Below, one piece after another: positions 15,101 through 58,766 of a stretch of 58,766 bases of DNA. The DNA is from Saccoglossus kowalevskii (lineage: Eukaryota > Hemichordata > Enteropneusta > Harrimaniidae). Location of the stretch: assembly GCF_000003605.2 (NCBI RefSeq), contig NW_003155240.1, positions 208,019 to 266,784 of the forward strand, in the 5' to 3' direction. The position numbers and the translations under genes were made by a program. Position 1 is the first letter of the stretch; every line of letters starts with the position of its first letter. The notes beneath the pieces are model-generated. The model saw only the letters and a program-made list of their open reading frames with translations. It was not told the origin of the DNA and made no database searches.

Positions 15101-18100
15101 ATAATATATATCAAATCAATCATTACAATAGCAAAAAGCACCAGCTGACTTCAATGCAAGTAGCATGTGCTGAATACGTGTAGCATTCATCTGTACCACT
15201 TTACTGTGTGATGTTACGTAGTACAGACACGAGATATAATAATATGATGTGATATAATTATTAAGTCTGTTCAACACTGAAATAATAATAATATATTATA
15301 AAAGATACAATGTCAGTCACTGTGAATTGTTACAGTCAATTTGTAAATGGGTATATCGACAGGTTTACCACTGTAATGGGATCTGATTAACGTTTGTTTT
15401 GTCAGTGTGCGCAAATTATGTTATTGACTCCAATCGAGCTCCTTCCAGGAAAATTAGAATGTTCTGCCCCTTAATTAGGTCGTAGAGTTATCAATGGTGT
15501 TCAAATATGATGTTAGTGTCGTGTTAGTAACGTGTTTATATTCATGCTAAAAATTACATGATACTATGCGCGTTATAGATTGTGATACAGTGTGTACTGC
15601 GCCCTCTTCGGTAGCATTATATGAAATACGAGATTCTCGATGGGGGCGCACTTGTTAACATCATTAATATAATTCATTGAGCGTTGTCCACCAAAGATGT
15701 CCAGGAGCGTAAGTATTGATGCAAATTATTTTACTTGCCCTATGGCCATCTCTGCCAAAATAATTTGTTTTGTTGAAAGTGGCTGGGGACATTAGTATAA
15801 AATGATTTGGTACATGTGAAAACTGGTCATTTCTGCCAAAAGAATTTGTTTTCTTGAAAGTGGCTGGGGACACTGCAGAATATTACCCCAATACCCCAAT
15901 TTCTAGATAAAAATTGAATTTTCACTAAATCGATGAAGAAAACATTGCATTTGTGTACAGTGCGTTATGATTGAGTTCCCATTGAAATAAGATAAACTTA
16001 TGTATTTCTTTATAGGTCGTCCCAGGTTGCCAAATGTTATTGACAATGACCTGGAAATCATGTCTCACACCAAAACACAGCTATTAGAATATTTCCCAGG
16101 GTCCAATGCGGATGGGTTGTACCTCACGTGGTCTCTTCATGTTAATACTAAAGGCGACTTGCTAAGGGCCATGGCGAGTAAGTATTCGAATATAATATAT
16201 AACCAATATTTTACATTTGAAGTTATTTAGTACAAAATACTGGTAATGCATTGTGCGTAAATAATATGAAAAATATGTCGGAGTATAATAGCACTTCGTT
16301 GTCAAGGTATACTCGTTGTATTATGGTTACAGTGTTTAAAGGTTACATCTTGAGTAAGGGACGACGTCAACAGATCGATGTCGGATAAAAAACTTATTTT
16401 CTTTAGTTTGGGGTGGGAGGGGTTGATCTCAAAAAGTTGCCATCCTACAAAAACGATTCTATTTTTTTTAATGAAGTCAAAAATATCTTGGAGTATTTGT
16501 AGTTTTTTTTCTATCCAATTATGGACAAAAATAACAGAAAATGAAAAAAAAAACACATCCAAGACGAGAAAATGTTTTGGTCCGAGTGTAAATATGTACT
16601 CAAATGAGGTCAATTTCAGGGCATGGACCTAGAACCAACTGCTATGCCATACTACTGTCCGATTATCAATTTGTATTTAATGGTGAATGTAGTCTGATGC
16701 CATGATCAATATTTATCAATTAAGTTTCAGTGGGGAGGGGATAAAGGAATTAAGTTCTTTATCCTACATTGAACTTTTGATGTTGTCCCTAAGTAAGTAT
16801 GAAGTCGGCAATTTAACAGTATGAAATAAACGATAATTTATTTCGCTTTCATTTATGGTGAAGCTTCACGGCCGTCGCGACGCATCGTACATCGGCCCCA
16901 ATTCAACGCATGTGAACTACGCGGGATTCGAATACGCTCTGCGCGACGACTACGGGCGCTTTAGACAGGCGCAGCCTTGACAATTATATTATTTATATGT
17001 TACATGTAACTGCTTTGGAAAATGCATTTGTAAAACCTCTTGTTGCGTCGGACCAAAAATAAAAAGATAAAAAAAAAAACTCTAGGGCGCTTTAACTATT
17101 CAGATATTTGAAATCGCCCAGTATCTTTATTTAATGTATACCTAAGTAAACAGTTCCGACAGTTTTCGGACATCATAACCTACTTGGAAAATCCACATGG
17201 ATTGGGTGGACAACATACAATTACCAGTACTGTGTTTTATTAGTCCCGCTGTTGATCAGAGCTTATCATATGAGCGATTGTCCGTCGTCGTCCATCGCCT
17301 GCGTCAACTTTTTTACTTTTTCGACTTCTTCTGGAAAACTACCAGACCGGTTGCTCTGATACGTGTATATGTACCTTGGGTAGACCTTATTCAGATTTAT
17401 TCATTTTATGATGATATCTCCAATTCTCTAATTGAAATGAGCATTGCTAACAACGGAGCTATCCTAGCCGAGAGGCTGTATTGAAAAACTGTGAAACCAA
17501 TATACGTGCTGCGCTTGTGTGTATTTATTGGCCTTGTTTCGAAACCAAAGTTGATCTCAAAACCAAAGTTAATTTCTCCAACTGAAATGTTAGTGCAGTA
17601 ATGTGAGAAAAGTTGAGGGGCTCCTGGCATTATTGCAGACTTTAAAACAGCTGGTCCGGGCAGTGAAGTAACAAAATAGGTGTGCTTTAGGCCGTTGAGA
17701 GGTCAGTGTCAACTGATGGTGGAAATAAGAGAATTATATGCCGATGAAAAGAATTATGCTATTTTAAAATAAACTGAATCAGCCAATGTATAAGTAGATA
17801 ACAAAATGGGACAGCGAAAGGTTGTTCCTGGATAAGCTCTCAATGTCCGTGGTGTTATCACTACTTAATGTAGTCATGTCTATATGTTTCTACTTGTTAC
17901 AGATGACTTGTTGATGATTATATGCGGGGACGTCAAACTCAAGGGAAACTTGGGTGAGAAAGGAACCTATCCGATCATGGCCGAGCCCGTCGTCGCCGAC
18001 AGCGACATCTCATTGGCTGAGTGGCTGGATAAAATATCAACATATACAAATAAAGCTATCAAACTTAATTTCTACGACACGGATTCGCTTCATCCAGCAT

Positions 18101-19206
18101 TTGAAGTGCTCCAGACGCTGCAGTACCAGATACACGCCCCTCTAATCCTGCGAGCTGATATTTTAGTCGGACCAAACGGTGATACTAATAAAATGGTGAA
18201 CGGAGTAAATTTCATCAGCGATGCCAATGGTCTATTTCCTAACTCTATTGTCTCGTTAGGCTGGAGAACTCATTGGACAACAGACTCAAAAGAGGTGCAA
18301 TATACATGGGATATGGTAATCGACATGGCAAAGTACTGTACGAGATTACATCAACCAATCAGTTTCTCTGTTCGAGCCGTTTTCGCCCGGAAATCTATTC
18401 GTCAGTTGAAATGGTTGGTTAGTTTATCCAGTAAGTTCACCATCACTATATTTTCGCCTGATTATGATATCGTGTCGATGTCCGAGTTGTCCATCTTTCG
18501 CCGAAGCCTCCCAGTGCACCGAGTTCTTTACGACGTGCCCGTGTCCTTCATCGCTGCGCTAAGGGAAGTCCAGCCGAATACTCTGCAAACTCCGGGTGAA
18601 AAAATGGAGAGGAATTTATGGCATCCGCAACCGTTCGACACAAAATCGTTTGTCTTCCTTGGTGAAGATATCATCGCATTTACCGGTCCCAATAGTTGGC
18701 TAACTTCTAAAATGCAATACCGAGCTGAGCTCGAGACCGGAAAGCAAGTTGAAATCTCCGGCATTGTGCAATTCGCTATGGCTTCCGAACAAATAACCAC
18801 CGACCAATCCAAACTTGACATTCACATCCGCAGTACAGGAGTTGATCCACCGGAGCCCGATTCAGTTCTCGGTGTGCGAATCGAAATAGTCAGCGACGGT
18901 ACTCTGCGTGTTTCCTCGCACAATTTAGCAAAAGCCGGGACGTACAATCCACAGACTACGGCAACTATTCCATCTCACGAATGTTATTATTTTCACATTG
19001 TTGACGCCGGTGAGACAGCACCCATAACGGTAAATATCAAATGGGCGGACTGCGAAGCAGGAGTGACAACAACCGAGCACAATGTACAGCTATCGCTGAC
19101 AGTGCCTTACGAAGCAACGCAGGAGGAGGAGTTTTATATCACAATCAATGGTAGTAATAATATTCATGGCGCGGCCACACTGTTAGAAAATCTGGTTGTT
19201 CGATAA
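9139..19206 (+). CDS. FAM151: FAM151/menorin-family (DUF2181) membrane-anchored protein, 6 exons, 610 aa
   Basis: Exons: 9139-9337, 11515-11571, 12015-12071, 14446-14499, 16016-16177, 17903-19206. All introns are phase 1 and GT-AG, and the sum is 1833 nt (610 codons plus stop). Residues 1-40 are basic and cytosolic-looking. Residues 43-60 (LMLLMWIGICLSLLILFS) form one membrane segment, giving a type II protein. Residues 67-104 are an acidic linker made by a duplicated exon. Residues ~145-410 carry the DUF2181 barrel: DGLYLTW (155-161), GDV, IMAEP (201-205), AIKLNF (228-233), RADILVGPNG (260-269), SLGW. The remainder to 610 is a beta-rich C-terminal domain. Menorin relatives act at the cell surface, for example in nematode dendrite patterning. 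Positions where the family usually has acidic or His residues are changed here (see findings). ATG 9139 was chosen as the first ATG in frame; ATG at the MARRNKRY position would also keep the anchor. AATAAA signals lie at 19487 and 19522. Confidence 0.92.
11515..11571 (+). repeat. Duplicated acidic linker exon, copy A (FAM151-like exon 2)
   Basis: A 57-bp exon in phase 1-1 encodes, with the split codon, ETQILQDDGAIKDTPLDGE. It is followed by a donor GTGAGATAGGTCAC that is identical to that after copy B for 14 bases. Exon size, phase, peptide ending (PLxGE) and intron start all match copy B, so this is an exon duplication that included flanking intron. Confidence 0.85.
12015..12071 (+). repeat. 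Duplicated acidic linker exon, copy B (FAM151-like exon 3)
   Basis: This 57-bp exon encodes DNKHIPQDDDLKAEPLEGE, and lies 500 bp after copy A. Being symmetrical (phase 1-1, 57 nt), either copy could be skipped or included without shifting the frame. Confidence 0.85.
12172..12241. repeat. (TGAT)n/(GAGT)n tetranucleotide microsatellite
   Basis: A compound simple repeat of TGAT then GAGT, about 70 bp, in intron 3 of the FAM151-like gene, 100 bp after duplicated exon copy B. Confidence 0.9.
13462..13940 (-). CDS. Candidate orphan gene antisense in FAM151-like intron 3
   Basis: A long open frame on the minus strand (13811-13462, 115 codons plus stop) is preceded by an acceptor (CTTTCAG at 13818-13812). 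Upstream, an ATG at 13940 opens a frame that reaches a possible donor (CAAC|GTGAAC at 13877) in matching phase 1. Joined, they give 137 residues beginning MTTKLRLLRVEFLKI and ending GFKFVINV. The intron would be only 65 bp. The protein is rich in Tyr, Asn and Asp with a basic patch (KLRRLLLRG) near the C-terminus. I recognise no domain. Support is only frame length and splice phase; it could be an old mobile-element frame or chance. Confidence 0.3.
15740..15870. repeat. Short tandem duplication in FAM151-like intron 4
   Basis: Two copies of a ~45-bp segment ending AAAGTGGCTGGGGACA (around 15748-15795 and 15832-15874) are about 80 bp apart. The minus-strand frame over them translates to a repeated MSPATF(K/N)KTN, but shows no other sign of being a gene. 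Confidence 0.5.
16357..16792. mobile_element. ~435-bp TIR element in FAM151-like intron 5
   Basis: The left end (AAGGGACGACGTCAAC... GTCGGATAAAAAACTTA... GGGGTGGGAGGGG) and the reverse complement of the right end (TTAGGGACAACATCAA... GTAGGATAAAGAACTTA... TCCCCTCCCCACTG) align over about 70 bp with moderate divergence. It has no coding capacity. This is a non-autonomous DNA transposon; the superfamily is not assigned. Confidence 0.65.
16860..16980 (-). repeat. Degenerate tRNA-like segment, probable SINE head
   Basis: A GC-rich island in an AT-rich intron. On the minus strand it contains GCGTATTCGAATCCCGC, which resembles a tRNA T-arm with mismatched stem bases. No acceptor stem or anticodon arm can be drawn, so I infer a SINE remnant rather than a tRNA gene. 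Confidence 0.3.
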
Positions 19207-37268: not shown

Positions 37269-40200
37269 TTAATTACGGGCGCACTCGGTGTGGACATCGA
37301 CGATATCGCGGACCTCGGCATCCAAGTTGGTGAACTTGCTGATGATTTGTGTCTTGCTGAGTTTGACGAGGTCTTGAGTAGACTGGAGGACTGATTCAAG
37401 ACAGTAAAATTTCATGTCAATTTTCTCGCTCTTCTGCTTTCTGCATTGATCGAGGCATTGTGAGACGGGGGTAGTAGAGAAACATGTCTTTCTTTGGCCA
37501 TCAATAGTCTTCTCAATAACGACATTCCTCATACGTGGCAGGCAAGTAGCTATTGTGAAAAAAAAACACAGAAAGAAATTGTAATTATAAAATATCATCG
37601 AGTAACTGATTGTTAATATTAATATACTTAATCTTTATTTATATTAAATTCAATATTATGTTGACCTACAGCAGTCAAAATAAATATCCAACTATAATAC
37701 ATATTATAAATAAATACTGAAACAAAACTGTGATATTAACAAATGGATAACGGAGATGATTTGCGTTAACTATAAACGTATTACATTATAATATTTTCAC
37801 TTACCATCGGCAGAGCATTTTTCACTTGGGACCTGGTAGCTGAGACCAAACTGTTTAGGTTCTTCGTATATTTCCTTTTGTGGTCCTTCGAATTCCCTGT
37901 TCTTCTCACCATCGAAGTTGCCACACAGACCACACAGTTCGGAGCGGAAGAACTGAGAGACCTGCCAAGATAACAATGGTTATGTCTGTCAGTAAATAAA
38001 TTGCTAGTAGCTGAAAGTATATTATTATTATTTATAGTTTTATTTTTTACTTATGTCATTGTAAATAATATAGCTGTTGTCGGTTTCATAATTTGAGTGT
38101 GTTTTATTGCTCACCTCGACTTTAATGTTCTTTCCATCAGACTTGACCCTTAATCCAACTTTTGTACTGATGACCTCGACACGGTTATCTTCGTAGCGGA
38201 TGACAATAAATTCAATTGGGTTTATGTTATTGTCTTCTTCGCGTCTATCACTTCTATATTCTTCATTGGATCTCAACTCGGTTTGGACACGAATTGCGAA
38301 TCTATTCCAGTAATTTTCCTCTTTGCTTGATACCTCAACGGAGGATGATTCACGGCGGCGACATTCCTCGACTTTGGTACGCTCATCTCTTGACAGCTCT
38401 CTCTCTTGTTCAGTACGGCTAAGTTCCTGGCACTCGCATCTCATTTGTCTCTCACGGCGGCGGAGTTCTTCACATTCCTGGCGACTGACCTCATCTCTGC
38501 GTTCATAGCTACCACTTCTGGACTCTTCCTGTCTTCTGCATTGGCGCAGTTTGTCGTTTTCATTTCTGGACAAATATTCAATTGGGCGGTCTGAGGTAGG
38601 ACGGATTTCTTCACATTCCTGGCGACTGATCTCATCTCTGCGTTCATAGCTGCCACTTCTGGACTCTTCCTGTCTTCTGCATTGGCGCAGTTTGTCGCTG
38701 TCCTGTTTGTTCAAATATTCACGTCTGTTTTCACGGCGGCGGAGTTCTTCACAATCCTGGCGACTGACCTCATCTCTGCGTTCATAGCTGCCACTTCTGG
38801 ACTCTTCCTGTCTTCTGCATTGGCGCAGTTTGTCGCTGTCCTGTTTGTTCAAATATTCACGTCTGTTTTCACGGCGGCGGAGTTCTTCACAATCCTGGCG
38901 ACTGACCTCATCTCTGCGTTCATAGCTGCCACTTCTGGACTCTTCCTGTCTTCTGCATTGGCGCAGTTTGTCGTTGTCCTGGTTGTTCAAATATTCACCT
39001 CTGTTTTCACGGCGGCGGAGTTCTTCACAATCCTGGCGACTGATCTCATCTCTGCGTTCATAGCTACCGCTTCTGGACTCTTCCTGTCTTCTGCATTGGC
39101 GCAGTTTGTCGTTGTCCTGGTTGTTCAAATATTCACCTCTGTTTTCACGGCGGCGGAGTTCTTCACAATCCTGGCGACTGACCTCATCTCTGCGTTCAAA
39201 GATACGACTGATCATTCTTTTCTCACATTTGTGGCACCTCTCGGTCTCATCAGTAGACAAGTACAATTGTTGTTCCTTTCGGCTACGAAGATCTTCACAT
39301 TCCTCTCTATTGATTCTCTTTTCTGGGCAGCTAAAGAGTTTCTTTTTCTGTTCAGGCGTCAGCTCATTTTCATCACGGACAATGAGCTCATTGCATTCAT
39401 CTTCTCTACGTTCACACTGACGGATAGTTTCCCTTTCTTCCTCCGATAGTTGTTCCTGGCGTTCCAGACGAGAGCGGAGATTCTTACATTCTTCACGCTT
39501 GTTGTCTCTGCAGTGGAAATATTTGACGATTTCCTTGGTGTTCAAATAATCATCATTGTCATCACGGCGTCTCAGCTCTTCACACTCAACATGTTTGCGC
39601 TCACAATCACGGAGTTGCTCATTTTCCCTCTCAGAAAGCTGTTCATTTCTCTGCTTACGAAGGTGGAGATCACGGCAAGCTTCACGTTCTACTCTCTTGC
39701 ATTGGTAAATGTTGACAAGTTCATCAAAGTTGAGGTATTCATTGCGTTCATCACGAAGACGGAGCTCTTCACACATGGTTGGGGTAACTTCTCTGATCTC
39801 ACTGCTTTGGCTACGACTGTATTCACTGCTGGTACTTGTGGATTCTTCCTCACACCATCTGTAAGTTGTTCTCTCTTTACTAGTCAAGTAATCTCCTCTC
39901 TCAGCACGTTGGCGAAGCTTGTCACATACATCTCTAGAATCCTGACGACTGTCAGAGCGACTGAGGCTGCTGGAGTAACTCTCATCAATTCTTTCACATT
40001 CACGGAGGACTATACGCTCCTGGCTAGTTAAACTTTCACGGTTTCTGAAGCGGAGCTCTTCACATTCTGGACGTCTCTCTTCCTCACTAGAGCTGCTACG
40101 GCTGCGTCTGTTCTCAAAACCTGATTGAATGTAGCGAGATTCTTCACGTAATGGAGCATATTCTATTTCACTGTCTTTACGAACAATCATTTTTTCATTA

Positions 40201-43200
40201 ATCTTAAGGTCTTTCTGTTCACCATTGATGCGAATAAGCATTTCTTCTTCCTGAGGGATCAATTCAACTTTCTTGTCTTCAACAAAGATTTTGGTGATCT
40301 AGATTCAAGAAATCAATGGAAAGACAACTTATTAAGGAGGTTTGAGTGGAATTCGACATTATATGTCATGTTTGTCATACATTTGAAATTATGGATTCAA
40401 GCCATAAAAATGAAAAAAAAAATGGGGCAACAGAAAACTGTTGGATATGAAAATATTAAGGAAAATGGCCAAAATTGGCACAGGTTTCTATGGTGAGAAT
40501 ATATCTTTATATCCCATAATTTTCCTTGGTGACATATGTTCATTAATGATACAAATTCTAATGTTTCTAGAGTAATAATATTTTTCCATGATATACAATT
40601 ATCTTCCAAAATGCATTATGTATATGTGCAGTAACATGTTTTGTTGTCCTGTTGATATAAAATATATAACACAATACAAACAATCCTTAGATTCAACTTC
40701 ATTGTTTACCTTGTTGTCAGAGTCAAGGTTTTTCTTGCTTATCAAGACAGTGAATCTTTCATCTGGGGAGCAGTCCTTGGCCAAAACATGTTCGCATTTG
40801 GACAGTTTGTAGCTGTATGAAACATCATCAAAAGTTTTGATTTCATCACCACGTACTTTGCAGTATGCTAAAGAGAAAGACAAAGAATAAAATCGTCAGA
40901 TACTTATATGCACATAATCATGTGAAACAATAATTGCATAAATGTATTTGCATACTTGTTCATAAGGGAAGTTTAACATGTTTTAGAGAAATACTTACGA
41001 GTGTATTGTTCATTCATAATATCATCCAACCATTGTTGAACATAAGTTCTCTTTGTTGACATAGGTTGCACCTTAACTGGCATTTGAACTCTTTCAAACT
41101 TGACATTCTCATATGGGTGGTTGATGGTGAAATTGAATTCACGGAAATTCTTGTCCAATTCAGCAGTAATGTATACCTTGTTGTAAGAGTTGTCGATTTC
41201 TACGTTGTCCATCTTCATATTATTCCACAAATAGTTCTGGGCAAGCAACATTGCCTTGGAGTAAACTCTCTTTACCCATTTTGGAAGCTAAAAAGTAAAA
41301 CGGGAAAATAAGGCACAAAATGTAACGAACCACTAAATTTAGCTTATTGGCAATGAAATACGTAAATGAAATATGTTAATCTAAAAATCTTACTCTCTCA
41401 TGGCTAATCTCAACATCGACTTTGTGCAATTCGGTGCGTTTCTTCATCAAGTTGGTACAGACTTCAGAGTATTGTTTTCCATTCTTCTTGTCTTCCTCAC
41501 ATTGTCTGTATTCAGTGGTATTCTTTTCTCTCTCCTCTCTGAGTTGATCCTTGCTCTTCTCGACACGGGCCTGGGAGTAAACACATATAACATAATACAT
41601 ATATCAATAAACAAAATAACTTACACAGGTGTTTTATAAAGAGATGAGTTGTATTTAAAAAGAATAGTGTACCTTTATTTCAACCTTCTTGTCATTTTCA
41701 CAACTCTTGCCCCACTGAGTAGTCAATTTAGTGAGGATACGCTTTGAGCTTCCTTCCACATCACGTTGTTGTTGATTGTCACGAGCATTGATGGGACGAG
41801 ACATACGCTGGCTTTCTTGTTGTAAGTATTCTCTGTCTTCACGGGTTTGTCTAATGGATTCAACCAGTTTCTCAACAGTCTCTTCTTCTTGTTCTGGGTA
41901 CTGGATCTCTCCTTGCATGCACATCTACATTAATAATAATATGATTATGAATAAAAATACACAAATAATTAAAACAAATATAAAATAATTTAAATAATAA
42001 TACTAATGTTTACCTTGAACTCCTTATTTTCTACATTCCTTGGAGCGCACACCAATTCAAAATGGAATGATTGATAATTTTCTTCTTTGTTATCTAAAGA
42101 AAGCTTAGCAATCAACTGACGATTGTATTTTGGATCTTCCTTGTGGATTCCAGTGATTTTAACAACAACATTATTCACTTTAACTACACGCTGCATTTGG
42201 CTTGGTTCTTCCATCTCTTGACTCCTGCTTTGTTGGTTGGTTCTACGACTTTCATCACTGCGACTACGACTCTCTTCACTGCGACTACGGCTCTCTTCAC
42301 TGCGACTACGGCTCTCTTCACTGCGACTACGGCTCTCTTCACTGCGACTACGACTCTCTTCACTGCGACTTTCCTCCATACTAGCACTCTTCCAGTCAAA
42401 TCTATCTACTTTCTGGACCCATGTACGTTTATCATCACGGTCATTCTGTCTACTGTTGCTATCCATACGACTGAATTCCTCACTGCTAGAACGAATAGAT
42501 TGGCGGATGCTGTGACGTTCAAGATGCTCTTCAGATTCATGTTTGTCTTCTCTGTTGACACGGACTTCAATCTCGACCTTGCTTGGATGATTATCACCAG
42601 GTCTAACAGTAATGTTAAATTCTACTGGGCCACACAAAGGATGGGCTGGGGATTCTGGAACATTTTTGTTGCTGACGTACTTTGTCTTCATCTCAAATTC
42701 AACACCAAGATCCTTCTTTCCATAAAGCTGCCTGACCTATAAAAACATTTTAAAAATAAAACTTAATATATTGATTGCATGTAATATGATACCAAGTCAA
42801 GTTAAAATAATAATTGCCTGTGATATAATAATAGTTATCTCTAAATAATATGATGGTTTACCTCAGTTGGATGTTCTTGGATTTTCTTGCCTCTAATTTC
42901 CCTTCTATTCTCCTCTCCAGACTCTTGCTCTCTGCGTTCATCTCTATATAATCTCCAGGTATCACGTTGTTCTTCATTTTCACGTCTTTCAACAGATTGT
43001 TGTTTCTTCTCACCAATCAGACTGAATGTAAATGGCTTGCTCTTAATGTTCACAAGTTGGCGTTCTGTCTGTGGGGTCTCAATTTCAGTTATGTATTTGT
43101 CTGTCTTCAGGTTGTATTCAACTGAACCATTCAATGGAAGTGAAGTATTGACAGAGGCTCTAATTCCAACACCAGATTTCAGTACATGACAATCAACACC

Positions 43201-46200
43201 AACTTTGCCTTCAATCACCATTGAGATCCTAAAATAAAAAAATAATATAGCTAATAATAACAGTTACAATATGTAAAGGTTGAAGTTTGTTTTGCTCACT
43301 AAATTGCACAATGCCAACAAATACACTTACTTGGGATGAAACTTGGCTTCTGCAGTAATGCGCTCTGGTCTCTGGCCATGACGTTTGGATTCAAATACTG
43401 ATGGGGTGACCTCAGCACGGCCTTCAACTCTCATGTGGACAACTGCAGCAGAAGACAGATTCATCTGGAGTGGGATTCCAAGTTCAGTAGGAATCTGGTG
43501 GGTCATATCAGCCAGAATGTATGCCTTTTGGTATTCAACAGTTTGCAGTGACCTCAGTTTGTCTTCAACATCCTTCACAGAGAATTGGCCATCTTCAAGA
43601 ATAGACTTGACAGAGTCCTTGTCAAAAGTAAAGAAGCGTATTTCATTGCCCATAACCTTGAGGTAGGCAGATCCCTTTGGCTCTTCAGGTGTACGTTGTT
43701 TAATTGGTAACTAGAAAATAAAACATAAATTATTCATGTAAGTCTATGCGTATATACAACATATGTAGATATACAACATACAAAGTTCAAATAAAATAAT
43801 GTATATTAAAATTAAATTTTATATATGCTTACATCATTCTTCAGCTGCTTCCTCTCTTTCTCAACCAGTGAAGCTGTGCTTCTTGGAGATCTCTTCTTCA
43901 GCAGATCCAAAACAGAACTTTTCTTCCAGACGGATCCCTGTGGTCCAACAATCTTCTCCACAAGAGTCTGCAGACCCTCAGCACGGAAACCAGTTTCCAA
44001 GATATTCATATTGCGTCCAAAGATGTTGGTGCTGAGCTTTGCATTGGCTGAGCGTGGGATGAAAGATTTTGGTGTGTCGATGGTGTTAACCTCAGTGGTG
44101 AATCCCATATCAAGTTCCTCTGAAATAATTAGTACATTTAAATATATCAGACTCGTAATGTACAATTTATTTAATCAAACTTTTGTTTTTCTACTGTAAA
44201 CATACAAAAAAACTTACTGTTTTGGTTGGTGAAGCGTACATTCTTAGAGTAGTGTGCACCTGGTGCAATTGGTTTGGCAAAACGCAGAGCATATTTTGCA
44301 TCACGAGATCTCTGCTTGTCCAGAGGATGAGTTGAGTTTGATAGAGATTTCAAGTGTGAGAAGACGAAAGATCCTACTTGTTGACTACGTTCCTTGTGAA
44401 GAGACTGGGCAAACAATTGCAGGAGTGGAGCAGTTATATTGCTATCCATCATAACAATAAAAGCGGCAATACGAACTTCTGGGGTATTTTCTTGGTTATG
44501 GTAGACTGGTGAGAGGACATTGCGGACCTAAAACATGACAAAAGAAAAGTGTAGTAATTGTATTCATAGAAATAAGGTTAAATAAATGTATGATGATGCC
44601 ATTTTTGATGTAGGTTTCCACAACTACATACCTTGCTTGGGATCTTTGGGGCCATACGACGGAGAGACCAGATAGCCTGAACCTTCATGTCTTCCTTGGT
44701 TGCAATACTTTCAATGATACTCTGGACATCAGCCAGGTTATCCTTAAGTCCAGCATTGGCAAGAGATTTAAGGCAGATCATACGTTCATCCTTTGATTTG
44801 TCACTCCTGATTCCCTCACGGAGATTCTGGCGGTTGAAAATATAAAGTTAGACAAGTCACTGTAGCACAAACTATTTTAAATGTATTTATTGATGGTGAT
44901 TTAAGCAGAAGACTGGATAATGTGTAGTGCACTTATAAACAACAACTTACTCTGGTGTACTTCTTGATGGGATCATCTCTCAACTGAGCACGGCGCTGTC
45001 TGAGTTCTTCAATGCGCTCTTGTGATCTTTGGGTACGAATCTGTTCTTGTTCTTGTTCTCTTATTTGTCTTTCAACCTCATTGATCATAGTCTGAATCTT
45101 GCCATCTTTCTTGTCCTCGTTGAAAGCACTGTTGACCAAAGAGCCAAAGCTCAACCAACAAGTCTTCCATACTTCCTTCTGTTCACGGATTTCATTCTGC
45201 TTGCACAGATCCTAAAGTGAAAGTACAAATTGATATAATTTGATCATTTGTGCAATTCACCTGTCTATTAAAGATGTACAAATATATCATATTTACAGCT
45301 CTTTTGTACTGTCAATTATTATTAAGTTGAATTGTATCAGTATTTGAATCAGTAATAGTATGCACAATTTGTTCACAATACACAATACTGTATTGAGGAA
45401 TTCCTTACCAAAATCTCTTCTAAAGTTTCGTGGCTTGGGTCATGAATCAATCCAATAAGATTCAGCATCTCGCTTGCACGTAACTGCTCGAATTCACGTC
45501 TCTCGATCTTTTCCTTGATGAATCTGACAGACTCTTCAGTGTTGATCATTGGCAGGGTATCCTTGAACAGTTTCCTGTAAGTGAAACCAGAAAATATCAA
45601 GGTAACTAACATATAAGGTACGAAAATATTTATAAGTTCGATATCATATTGCTTCAGAATGACAATCCGTGAATTGCAGCCAACTTACATCTTTCTCTCA
45701 TACTCTTCATCATCTTCGTCTTGTTGTTTGCGTTCAACCTCATCATAAAGATCTTTAAGTTCCTCCTTTCTCAAATCGCGCAGTTTTTTCACCAACAGGA
45801 TGAAACGAGATGGAATTTCTTCAGAAATGGTCTCATATCTCAACTGCTTGGTCAGATCCTTCAGGATATTTCTAACTTCAGTCTTTCTTTCAACAACCTC
45901 GTCTCTGGTGAGGTGTCTTGGGGAAACTTCACGCTCGATCTTCTCTTTAAGTTCCTTCTGTTCAGGGAATTCGTATCTCAAGCTGTTCTTCTTGGTGTCA
46001 CGTGGCTCTTCAATTCTTTCAGAGATGTCGCGGCTTTCCCTCAGTTTCAAAGTTTGACTATTGATTAAACAAAACATTACAAATGATAATAAATAATAGC
46101 AAACTTGATGACACATAGTAAGGTAAAATTTCTAAAAATGGGAAGTGATGCGAGGTGAATATAAATCCAAAGAATAGTTATATTATTTCAAATTATTATG

Positions 46201-49107
46201 TGTTTTTACAGGCTTTCTATTCATATGGAATCCATGTCAAACACAGTGGTGCAGCGACCACAGTACTTTCAGTCAAATATATTATACTTACTTGACGAAG
46301 GTGACGACATTGCTGATATCATCACGGTATGGGGAATATATGTGTTGTCCTTCAGCAATGGCTGATTCAATAAGGAATTTCAGTTGGTTATCTTTGTTGT
46401 AGGTGACATTGTAACGCACTTGGCTGATAGATTTCAAAGAATTTCTCCTGTTTTCTCTATCCTCGTCCATTTCCTTGCCGGAAATAGTAGATTTCTGCAT
46501 CTCCTTGTGTTCTTCGCAGTTGTCAAGGTTTCTGATTTTAGTGATGTTCATCACGTTCTTTGATTCTGGAAGGGGGGATAACACAATGTTACTGTCTCTA
46601 TTTTATTTCTGTCTGGGTGAACAGGCGCAATGTTGTATGTATGTTATACTTGTACACACGTTTATAGCATAGTAACAAACTGTCGATATTGTACATACCC
46701 ATATCTGAGGTAGATGATTGCCTGCTCAATTCGGTGACACCATATTTGATTTTGTAGACAGATTCACATTTGCCGGATACACTTTCCTAATATAATATAA
46801 TATAATATAATAAAATAGAATAGAATAGAATAGAATAGAATAGAATAGAATAGAATAGAATAGAATAGAATAGAATAGAATAGAATAGNNNNNNNNNNNN
46901 NNNNNNNNNNNNNNNNNNNNNNNNNNNNNNNNNNNNNNNNNNNNNNNNNNNNNNNNNNNNNNNNNNNNNNNNNNNNNNNNNNNNNNNNNNNNNNNNNNNN
47001 NNNNNNNNNNNNNNNNNNNNAATAGAATTTTTTCTAATCTATAAAAACAATTATGGCCATACCTCGAGAATGCGCATAACTTTGACGTCCTGCTTATCGA
47101 AGACCTGGCTTGGGTGACGGTTAGAGTCTCTGTTTTGGTCAATGGATTCACGTTCATTAATGTTAAGTTGGAACAAGTTGAAGATACCACGTTTAATGTT
47201 GATGGACCATTCTGGTTCATCACGGCTGGTTTCAATCTCGACCACCTACGAGAGAATTATAAATTGGTTAACAAATCCAAGAAATCGGATTTAAACACAT
47301 AAACACATAATTCATAGATATACAAGGTTTGGTACGTTATCATAAAATCTTACTTTGCCATCTCTGTATGTAATCCTGATTGGGCGAGTCAGTTCTCTCC
47401 TGAAGACTTCATCTTCTTCACCGGTAACTTCCAGGGAAGTTTCCAAAGGTTGTTGTCTCCTGGGATCTTCGATCTCTCTTTGAAGTCTGTGCAGTTTGAC
47501 ATGGTCGAGCTGGAAGTAACAGTAACGATAGATATATTTAATCGATATACAAATTAAATCGAAAATTAAAATCTAATTTGAAAATAATTTAAAGATTTGT
47601 TAATTATATTTAGTTGAATATTTCGAACATTTTTCTCTATATAAGCATAAATATATCCAACCGGTGATTAGACGCGTGTAGGTGTGACGCTGTTTACTAT
47701 AATGAAGAGACTCGATGTAACTGCTTACCTGTACAATGACATTGTCTTCATCTTTGAATTGAAGCCTTGGCTTACAACTGATCCTAAGACCAGAGAATTC
47801 CTGGCTTGATTTTGGCAGTCCACTTAGAACCTGACCTTCATATTCGTAGACGTATTCACGCCCTGGTGTGAATTCTGCAAAACAATTAAATTCGGCATAT
47901 GAAACGTTGAATGACGTATCGGTTAGAACGCAGTATTTTTTTAAACCGCAGTCGAATTTAATTGATTGTGATTATTGATAATCATTGTAGCGTCAATGTC
48001 TAACAATGCCCGAACTGGCGACCGATTACAAATTGTCACGCCACATATCAGAATACATGCCCTTTGAATTTTAGATAAACCCAGTCCTAGCTAAATTGTA
48101 GAACATCTGTGTTAATATTTGTTCGCATTGTAGTGCCTGACTCGTACTGGTGCATTAAGACAATGGACACTGATAGAACCGACCACGAACCAACATCGTA
48201 CCGATAAGCTGCAGAGTATGTGTATAATCTTATCGGACCCTGGGCAATTTAAATATGAACACACAAAGACCGGAAGCATTCGATCACGTGACCCCAAAAA
48301 GTTGTTCACGCCTAAGGGTTATGTTAGACAAGACTATGGATACTTACGAGATTCACGGATTTCTGCGTCTGTGGAATAAAAAATAAAAATACGCTTAAAA
48401 TAGTAAAATTGTCACAGCTGACTAAATATATGTAATATGATAGTTATCCATTATATCGCCGATGCTCATTTGTTTTTTTAAGATCGAAATTCAGTGCAGC
48501 CGTGTGTTCATATGTTTCTGTTAGCTGAATTGAACTTGGAGCTGAAAATCGCATTCAAATTTAAAATAATTGCATAGACACGGTGATAAAGAATCAAGTT
48601 TCCTGTTATGAACTGTTTGTCAAGTAAATTTTCGAAGTGCCCGGATGAAAGTGTAAACAGGTAGCGACACCCCAGCTCATTTGCAAACAATCAATGCTCA
48701 TACTGACGCGCAAACAATTAACCGCGCATGCGCAGAAACTTTCTGACGCGGGGTATGCGGTTTATCAAAAAAGTTTGAAAACCAAATTCCTGAAGGGATA
48801 TGATAAAAGACCAGTTTGTAAAAAACAAAAACTTTCAAAATCGCAGGTCACTTGCTGGATAGATCGCCGCATAAATACATATAGTATACATGCAAACTCG
48901 CACTGTTATCCGATTTATGACTCATGCAAGCAAACTTAAGCAACGACTAACTCAAAACAATAAAATAAATCAGGCGCAATACAAAACGAAAAGTTTTAAA
49001 AAAATTAAAAATAGAACACATATACGAACAGCTGAACAAAATAAAAAGTAAGTTATATACTTACAGGCGAGCAGAGCGCCCAACAGTACTATTGCAAGAG
49101 TCTTCAT
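37269..49107 (-). CDS. Vtg: Vitellogenin (yolk protein precursor), 23 exons, 2488 aa, VWD domain interrupted by Cys-repeat insert
   Basis: Exons (minus strand): 49107-49065, 48368-48348, 47874-47729, 47509-47354, 47245-47063, 46786-46699, 46565-46292, 46057-45689, 45574-45409, 45211-44951, 44826-44632, 44527-44218, 44119-43833, 43710-43331, 43228-42862, 42736-42014, 41924-41673, 41570-41394, 41287-40999, 40867-40710, 40298-38115, 37961-37805, 37549-37269. All are GT-AG, phases agree, and the sum is 7467 nt. Residues 1-17 are a signal peptide ([16 protein letters not shown]). The lipid-transfer N domain follows, with [14 protein letters not shown] at ~24 and [15 protein letters not shown] at ~132; helical superhelix exons 7-13 contain charged inserts; the beta-sheet region includes a Ser-Glu array (1201-1247). 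VWD begins at C1565 ([18 protein letters not shown]) and ends with CGLCGNFDG (from C2353), but residues ~1670-2277 are a repeat insert. The final exon adds a Cys-containing tail. The product is secreted and taken into oocytes as lipid and amino-acid store. Confidence 0.97.
38361..40064 (-). repeat. Cys-x(21-24)-Cys helical-hairpin repeat region inside vitellogenin exon 21
   Basis: About 15 units (residues ~1694-2261) each follow C-x2-L-x-x-R...(E)-(Y/Q)-L-(S/T/N)...(L/I)-x-x-C, separated by Arg/Glu/Ser-rich linkers. One unit is truncated ([13 protein letters not shown]) and adjoins the last. N-terminal units are diverged; C-terminal units are nearly identical. Two helices rich in R and E closed by a disulfide are the simplest reading. 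The whole insert is in a single exon, with VWD sequence on both sides of it. Confidence 0.9.
38450..39225 (-). repeat. 138-bp coding minisatellite (46-residue units) in vitellogenin
   Basis: The same anchor (TCATCTCTGCGTTCA) recurs at 38491, 38632, 38770, 38908, 39046 and 39184: spacings 141, 138, 138, 138, 138. Units are nearly identical and always in frame, so the array has expanded recently by unequal exchange or slippage without breaking the frame. Confidence 0.95.
42242..42382 (-). repeat. 21-bp coding repeat, SRSRSEE array in vitellogenin exon 16
   Basis: About six tandem 7-residue units (SEESRSR) occur at residues 1201-1247, between predicted beta strands of the large lipid-binding sheet region. 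Every unit contains S-x-E, the recognition motif of the secretory-pathway kinase Fam20C, so it may act as a small phosphoserine cluster in place of phosvitin. Phosphorylation is inference. Confidence 0.9.
46787..46888. repeat. Pentanucleotide microsatellite (TATAA then TAGAA units) in vitellogenin intron 5
   Basis: A TAATA-type run turns into about 17 perfect GAATA units and then meets the assembly gap. It starts directly at the acceptor of exon 6 (AG at 46788-46787), leaving almost no conventional polypyrimidine tract: the acceptor is ATATTATATTAG. Confidence 0.95.
46889..47020. other. Assembly gap (132 N)
   Basis: A run of N inside the microsatellite of vitellogenin intron 5. The repeat resumes as AATAGAA on the other side, so the gap is most likely unresolved repeat, of unknown true length. 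Exons on both sides join in phase, so no exon needs to be hidden in it. Confidence 0.98.
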
Positions 49108-58295: not shown

Positions 58296-58766
58296 ATTGA
58301 ATTCGTAGATATTTTGTAAACCTATCACATATACCCGTAATAGAATGGGTAGATATTTTGTAAATGTACCACATATACCCGTAATAGAATGAGTAGATAT
58401 TTTGTCAATCTACCACATATACCCGTAATAGAATGAGTAGATATTTGTAAATATACCACATATACCCGTAATAGAATAGGTATATATTTTGTAAATCTAC
58501 TACATATACCCGTAATAGAATGGGTAGATATGTTGTAAATCTGCCACATATACCCGTAGTAGAATGGGTAGATATTTTGTAAATCTACTACATATACCCG
58601 TAGTAGAATGGGTAGATATGTTGTATATCTGCCAGATATACCGCAAAAGAATGGGTAGATGTATTGTAAATCTGCCACATATACTGGTAATAGAATAGGT
58701 AAATATTTTGTAAATTTACCACATATACTGGTAATAGAATAGGTAGATATTCTGTAAATATACCAC
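58296..58766. repeat. 44-bp tandem satellite-like array, runs off the window end
   Basis: About ten copies of a ~44-bp unit containing TAGATATTTTGTAAAT, then CCACATATACCCGTAATAGA. Copies differ by a few bases, and one is short by a base or so. The array is cut by the window end, so its true size is unknown. Minus-strand translation yields a repetitive peptide (ITGICxRFTKY) with no sign of being a gene. Confidence 0.95.

Follow-up and report, generated by a model that had tools for sequence, protein, structure and literature searches.

A vitellogenin gene of Saccoglossus kowalevskii with an Arg/Glu-rich array of Cys-ended units inside its VWD domain

VWD domains, which are normally unbroken, occur widely, in yolk proteins as well as in mucins and clotting factors. 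Disulfide-stapled helical hairpins are known from plant seeds, where the alpha-hairpinins carry two Cys per helix (CxxxC...CxxxC). In fish vitellogenins, the Ser-rich phosvitin is located between the lipovitellin heavy and light chains, ahead of the C-terminal VWD domain, and phosvitin is reportedly absent from most invertebrate vitellogenins (PMC4632452). The VWD Cys residues of honey-bee vitellogenin are C1444, C1466, C1598 and C1634, and in its reported homology model 2 intrachain disulfides connect 2 segments, with the C1444-C1598 bond being named (PMC8727950). Here, we describe a vitellogenin gene located in a window of 58,766 nucleotides (the whole stretch of DNA analysed) from the acorn worm Saccoglossus kowalevskii (assembly GCF_000003605.2, contig NW_003155240.1, positions 208,019 to 266,784, forward strand), in which the VWD domain is interrupted by 644 residues containing 15 Cys-ended units. 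The insert is a striking domain insertion, real and in an open frame, in an otherwise normal vitellogenin.

The gene was modelled with 23 exons, the boundaries of which were chosen by hand and eye; all 22 introns are of the GT-AG type, and the sole stop codon of the spliced model lies at the end of the frame. In Pfam scans, which covered the protein outside residues 1038-1466, residues 1-1037 matched Vitellogenin_N (PF01347) over positions 1-590 of 590 with 401 bits and Vit_open_b-sht (PF09172; DUF1943, open beta-sheet) over positions 1-303 of 303 with 235.6 bits, and the only PDB matches of the same residues at E <= 0.01 were lamprey lipovitellin and honey-bee vitellogenin. At the sequence level, these domain and structure matches identify the product as a vitellogenin of the large lipid transfer protein (LLTP) superfamily. 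A hydrophobic N terminus, a possible signal peptide, is visible when the translation of the spliced model is read directly, and exon 16 carries a tract of Ser/Arg/Glu heptads. Exon 21 (40298-38115, 2184 nt) is the longest of the 23 exons and contains no stop codon in the coding frame, whereas the 2 remaining sense frames hold 19 and 113 stops and the 3 antisense frames 9, 17 and 36. The initial annotation had recognised a vitellogenin, numbered and placed exons 20 to 22, and noted the lack of any stop or frame break, and the rebuilt model agrees with it on each of these; its remark that the Ser-rich part of vitellogenins precedes the VWD domain likewise holds here for the Ser/Arg tract. An automatic annotation of this gene is presumably present in public databases. 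The gene and its parts are located as follows:

37269..49107, minus strand: vitellogenin gene, 23 exons, 2488 aa (spliced model)
42243..42370, minus strand: Ser/Arg/Glu repeat tract (21-bp repeat, 6.1 copies) of exon 16, encoding residues 1203-1242 and preceding the VWD domain
40710..40867, minus strand: exon 20, first VWD part with Cys 1565 and 1587 (model; first-half segment)
40149..40298, minus strand: start of exon 21, VWD strands 5' of the insert, ending IEYAPL (spliced model)
38217..40148, minus strand: insert of 644 residues (1666-2309), Arg/Glu-rich, with 15 Cys-ended units
39234..40064, minus strand: units 1-8, diverged, with linkers of 6-26 residues
38452..39198, minus strand: recent 138-bp tandem array, units 9-13 and the beginning of unit 14 (TRF, 5.4 copies, 93% matches)
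38361..38474, minus strand: unit 14 (truncated, 11 residues between its Cys) and unit 15
38115..38216, minus strand: last part of exon 21, VWD strands 3' of the insert (spliced model)
37805..37961, minus strand: exon 22, completing the VWD domain and containing CGLCGNFDG as well as Cys 2356 and 2392 (spliced model)
37269..37549, minus strand: exon 23, with the stop codon and a C-terminal region that contains Cys (spliced model)

Scanned alone against Pfam, the first-half segment matches positions 1-88 of the 156-position VWD profile (42.9 bits). With the insert retained, hmmscan returns 2 VWD stretches (78.4 bits), and with the insert omitted, together with the 6 residues of IEYAPL, the joined flanks give a single stretch covering positions 1-154 of 156 (84.8 bits). 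Thus, the proposal that a VWD domain is split by an in-frame insert within a single exon is confirmed, for 644 residues of exon 21, and the claim that the flanks form one VWD is borne out by the nearly complete profile. In an alignment of the VWD domains of this genome, the insert falls between the strand ending KMIVRKDS and the strand beginning IEFIVI; compared with the VWD of FCGBP, this is the turn preceding KIRVSQHG. Judged from known VWD folds, the site would be a surface beta-turn. The initial annotation had put the insert in a loop between strands, and the other VWD domains of the genome, inspected partly by eye, have only a short turn at that place.

The key VWD Cys residues are 1565, 1587, 2356 and 2392, and their spacings of 22 and 36, as well as the Asp at +11, are identical to those reported for honey-bee vitellogenin (PMC8727950). 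If the Cys pair as in the model of the bee protein, with the second bond formed by the remaining 2 Cys, both disulfides would span the insert, and the array, its flanks being tied by bonds between the 2 halves, would have to loop out. Among the 6 calcium-ligand positions, +2 Asn, +4 Asp and +11 Asp are kept, Asp is replaced by Glu at +6 and +10, and Asn by Arg at +9.

The insert itself, at 644 residues slightly larger than the ~600 first estimated, holds 15 units bounded by Cys, with spacings between the bounding Cys of 21, 23, 23, 23, 23, 23, 21, 20, 23, 23, 23, 23, 24, 11 and 22 residues for units 1 to 15. The count of ~15 C-x(21-24)-C elements given earlier is therefore upheld, with 13 of the 15 within that range, one at 20 and the truncated one at 11. 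The linkers between units measure 23, 26, 7, 6, 7, 6, 9, 22, 21, 21, 21, 21, 21 and 1 residues. Because the 2 Cys bounding a unit stand at an almost fixed distance (20-24 in 14 of 15 units) and the linkers are uneven (1-26 residues), we take a 25-residue piece, rather than a 46-residue period, as the basic unit. Gaps of 21-24 residues separate 19 of the 30 pairs of adjacent Cys (13 within units and 6 in linkers); 20,000 shuffles averaged 1.9 such gaps and never gave more than 11. This null takes no account of the recent tandem duplication that produced units 9-13 and therefore overstates independence. Spacings of 20-23 are also kept by unit 15 and the diverged units 1-8. An extra Cys, at 1973, sits 3 residues past the end of unit 8, and since the total of 31 Cys is odd, at least 1 must be unpaired or bonded elsewhere.

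In composition, the insert contains 20.3% Arg, 19.4% Glu, 10.4% Ser, 4.8% Cys (31 residues) and only 3.9% Lys, compared with 8.5% Arg and 9.1% Lys in the remainder of the protein. The array might be a phosvitin-like module, replacing the phosphorylated, metal-binding part of vertebrate vitellogenin: it belongs to a yolk protein, contains 31 [ST]xx[DE] and 15 SxE motifs (raw counts, with no background computed) and comes from an invertebrate, most of which are said to lack phosvitin in their vitellogenins (PMC4632452). Nevertheless, with Ser at only 10.4%, Arg as the commonest residue, a net charge of −11 over 644 residues and a different place in the protein, we hold such a module to be highly improbable. 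A defence module, in which Arg-rich disulfide hairpins freed by proteolysis would be antimicrobial or agglutinating, has the helical hairpins of plants as a precedent. Vitellogenins, including that of amphioxus, have also been reported to be hemagglutinating and antibacterial (PMC4632452). The near-neutral net charge, the presence of 1 Cys per arm instead of CxxxC and the lack of any sequence relative in Pfam, NCBIfam and PDB searches speak against it, leaving it with an equally slim chance.

Nine of the units, 7 of them distinct, are of the full length of 25 residues, and in these C1, L4, R7, L14 and C25 are invariant and position 22 is L, I or Y. A motif L-[STN]-x-x-[ED], which we take to be a helix N-capping motif, follows the turn in 13 of the 15 units, and hydrophobic pairs are commonest at the antiparallel register i+j=26 (15 of 70; 13 registers compared). 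Because the Cys spacing, the capping motif and the hydrophobic register fit together, it may fairly be inferred that a unit is an antiparallel alpha-hairpin closed by Cys1-Cys25. Charge periodicity, considered as a proof of helices, gave a mixed picture, with no enrichment of opposite charges at i+4. Regarding selection, any 2 of the 4 near-identical recent copies differ by 0-2 changes that are synonymous and 0-4 that are nonsynonymous, comparisons of recent copy 5 with copies 1-4 being left aside as one codon out of register, and over 21 pairs of 7 units the pooled synonymous divergence (pS) is 0.69 and the nonsynonymous divergence (pN) 0.39, values which are saturated and derive from non-independent pairs.

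These data bear on a further explanation, namely that the insert is a tolerated low-complexity expansion, a disordered polyampholyte without a specific fold or function, kept since the turn is at the surface and a yolk protein is a nutrient. Recent growth of the 138-bp tandem without a sign of purifying selection, the extreme Arg/Glu content, the tiny hydrophobic core and the second simple Ser/Arg repeat in exon 16 are what such an expansion would look like. However, the Cys spacing, L4, L14, the hydrophobic residue at position 22 and the capping motif persist across the diverged units, and the pooled pS exceeds pN, which leads us to regard a tolerated expansion as unlikely, if deserving of serious consideration.

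An artefact of the model or alternative splicing could also remove most of exon 21 from the main mRNA, either through skipping or through an internal donor joined to exon 22. The 2184-nt length, a multiple of 3, would let skipping keep the frame, and 6 of the 126 internal GT sites equal or exceed the weakest of the 22 real donors in score, with 5 of these strong donors (39929, 39182, 38906, 38768, and 38489) being in frame with exon 22; 4 of the 245 internal AG sites reach the weakest real acceptor. Against this stand the absence of in-frame stops over the 2184 nt and the fact that the sole strong donor-before-acceptor pair inside the exon, 39929 to 39507, would alter the reading frame and excise no more than a portion of the array, whereas skipping, or joining 39929 to exon 22, deletes VWD strands. 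No internal splice pair of real-site strength excises the array while keeping both VWD parts of exon 21. Judged by splice-site scores, the array is thus unlikely to be cut out within exon 21. Splicing of an internal donor to exon 22 could shorten it, with loss of the VWD strands that close exon 21. That the main mRNA lacks most of exon 21 appears to us most improbable.

Searches of the genome covered an assembly of 572 Mb in 4,830 contigs. Its mitochondrial contig, of 17,037 bp, bears COX1 on the opposite strand to most genes and has the order ND2-ND1 (genes named by eye from ORF translations, COX1 also by profile), and conserved COX1 positions, inspected by eye, are best read with ATA as Ile and AAA as Lys. 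The same reading of AUA and AAA has been published for S. kowalevskii, which is said to differ from Balanoglossus by an inverted COX1 and a transposed ND1 or ND2 (PMC3121625; see also PMC2697986). The mitochondrion thus points to Saccoglossus, probably S. kowalevskii. Besides the gene described here, 4 other genes match Vitellogenin_N (C20, C409, C1622, and C3134), and all 4 lack the insert: in the VWD alignment, nothing is added at the homologous turn of C20 and C409, and by eye the turns of C1622 and C3134 are short and ordinary. In whole-genome protein searches, in which the best 3 and 2 candidates were scored, this exon alone matched among these candidates and the array did not turn up a second time; an origin from a dispersed mobile element was therefore considered unlikely. 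Pattern searches for relatives of the array in viral, bacterial and archaeal sequences gave 3 matches in viral_contigs and 27 in genome_contigs, with none confirmed. Apart from VWD, Pfam had no match above cut-off for the whole insert or its parts, and NCBIfam had none for a 335-residue part; in PDB, the best E values were 0.13 for 325 insert residues and 0.8 for the unit profile. The latter match, to the Nkx-2.5 homeodomain, was taken as chance. Among the matches listed for the open-access literature, considered as titles and the starts of abstracts, we recognised no description of an insert inside a vitellogenin VWD.

Some of the related genes have features of their own. The LLTP gene at C3134:228000-247999 (minus strand) has an uninterrupted second VWD half. 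The LLTP gene at C1622:31948-36366 (plus strand), apoB-like by eye, includes an open stretch of 1473 aa. Of the 138 N-x-S/T motifs in this stretch, 129 fall within its first 1,000 residues, after which come a VWD and, by eye, an apparent VWA domain. At C20:1-2400, several kb downstream of the vitellogenin-like gene, there is a long imperfect repeat array with ATKGQG-like motifs in several frames.

A scheme that would account for the insert, with a predicted fold, disulfide pattern, expression and function, is as follows. An in-frame array of ~15 Cys-ended units would have grown by repeat duplication inside a VWD beta-turn, with the 2 VWD halves still folding together. Two conserved disulfides between the halves, predicted from the Cys spacing, would tie them, leaving the array looped out. 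Each unit would most likely consist of helix A (~1-10), a turn (11-14) and helix B (~15-25), with the open end stapled by Cys1-Cys25. The array could then serve as an Arg/Glu/Cys-rich, near-neutral packing or storage module of yolk granules, perhaps taken up with vitellogenin and later digested; this looped-out storage and packing role is our guess from the sequence. The structural, ion-binding or cross-linking role put forward in the initial annotation would likewise be conjecture. Several observations weigh against the scheme. One of the 6 calcium-ligand positions is lost (+9 Asn to Arg) and 2 Asp have become Glu; each unit has only a very small hydrophobic core (positions 1, 4, 14, 22, and 25); 7 of the 15 hydrophobic pairs of register 26 are the Cys1-Cys25 pair itself; and residues of opposite charge show enrichment at i+2 and i+3, not i+4, which is not a clean helical pattern. 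Furthermore, the 4 near-identical copies show no sign of purifying selection, pS and pN are about equal for the pairs of unit 5 with units 9 and 11, exon 21 can be skipped without loss of frame, being a multiple of 3, and in-frame internal donors, 39929 among them, could join exon 22 directly. Taking both sides together, we think it rather probable that this acorn-worm vitellogenin carries a looped-out array of ~15 alpha-hairpin units in its VWD domain as a yolk storage or packing module. Only tentatively, and with considerable doubt, do we suggest that the ~25-residue Cys1-Cys25 alpha-hairpins constitute a new class of secreted repeats, forming a looped-out rod or brush on the VWD that replaces phosvitin in acorn-worm yolk packing and storage, in which the unpaired 31st Cys could cross-link molecules.

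If true, the 644-residue guest would reveal the tolerance of the VWD fold at a single turn and suitable sites for payloads, and would mean that yolk proteins can gain a large module away from the phosvitin position. Vitellogenin-derived tags already deliver Cas9 into oocytes of S. kowalevskii, a laboratory animal, as reported in PMC11423919, and for this reason deletion and tracking tests of the array are realistic.

Elsewhere in the window, a 445-aa open frame at 17869-19206 (plus strand) matches the Pfam families Menorin (202 bits) and Menorin_C (41 bits) and is presumably a FAM151-like gene. A 44-bp tandem satellite occupies 58305-58766, reaching the end of the window, and an AATAG pentanucleotide array in intron 5 of the vitellogenin gene (46789-47020) adjoins a run of 132 N. 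No RNA families at the gathering threshold and, under bacterial settings, no tRNAs were found in the window.

Among known systems, the alpha-hairpinins share with the units the idea of a stapled hairpin, yet the units have 1 Cys per arm and lack CxxxC...CxxxC, and no sequence relationship between the two was found in Pfam, NCBIfam and PDB searches. Phosvitin is a Ser-dominated stretch before the lipovitellin light chain, whereas the insert contains 10.4% Ser and lies inside the VWD domain. Lamprey lipovitellin (1lsh) has the lipid-binding N-terminal module in common with our protein (180 bits to 1lsh_A). Honey-bee vitellogenin (PDB 9enr) likewise combines Vitellogenin_N with a C-terminal VWD domain, with the same 22/36 Cys spacings and +11 Asp; its polyserine stretch joins the beta-barrel and helical parts, and the available portion of the source mentions no VWD insert (PMC8727950). 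In FCGBP and von Willebrand factor (8rde, 7zwh), the VWD domain aligns over nearly the whole length and has a short turn at the place of the insert. Finally, the other LLTP genes of the S. kowalevskii genome share the combination of Vitellogenin_N and VWD (a VWD half in C3134), and the insert distinguishes this gene alone among them.

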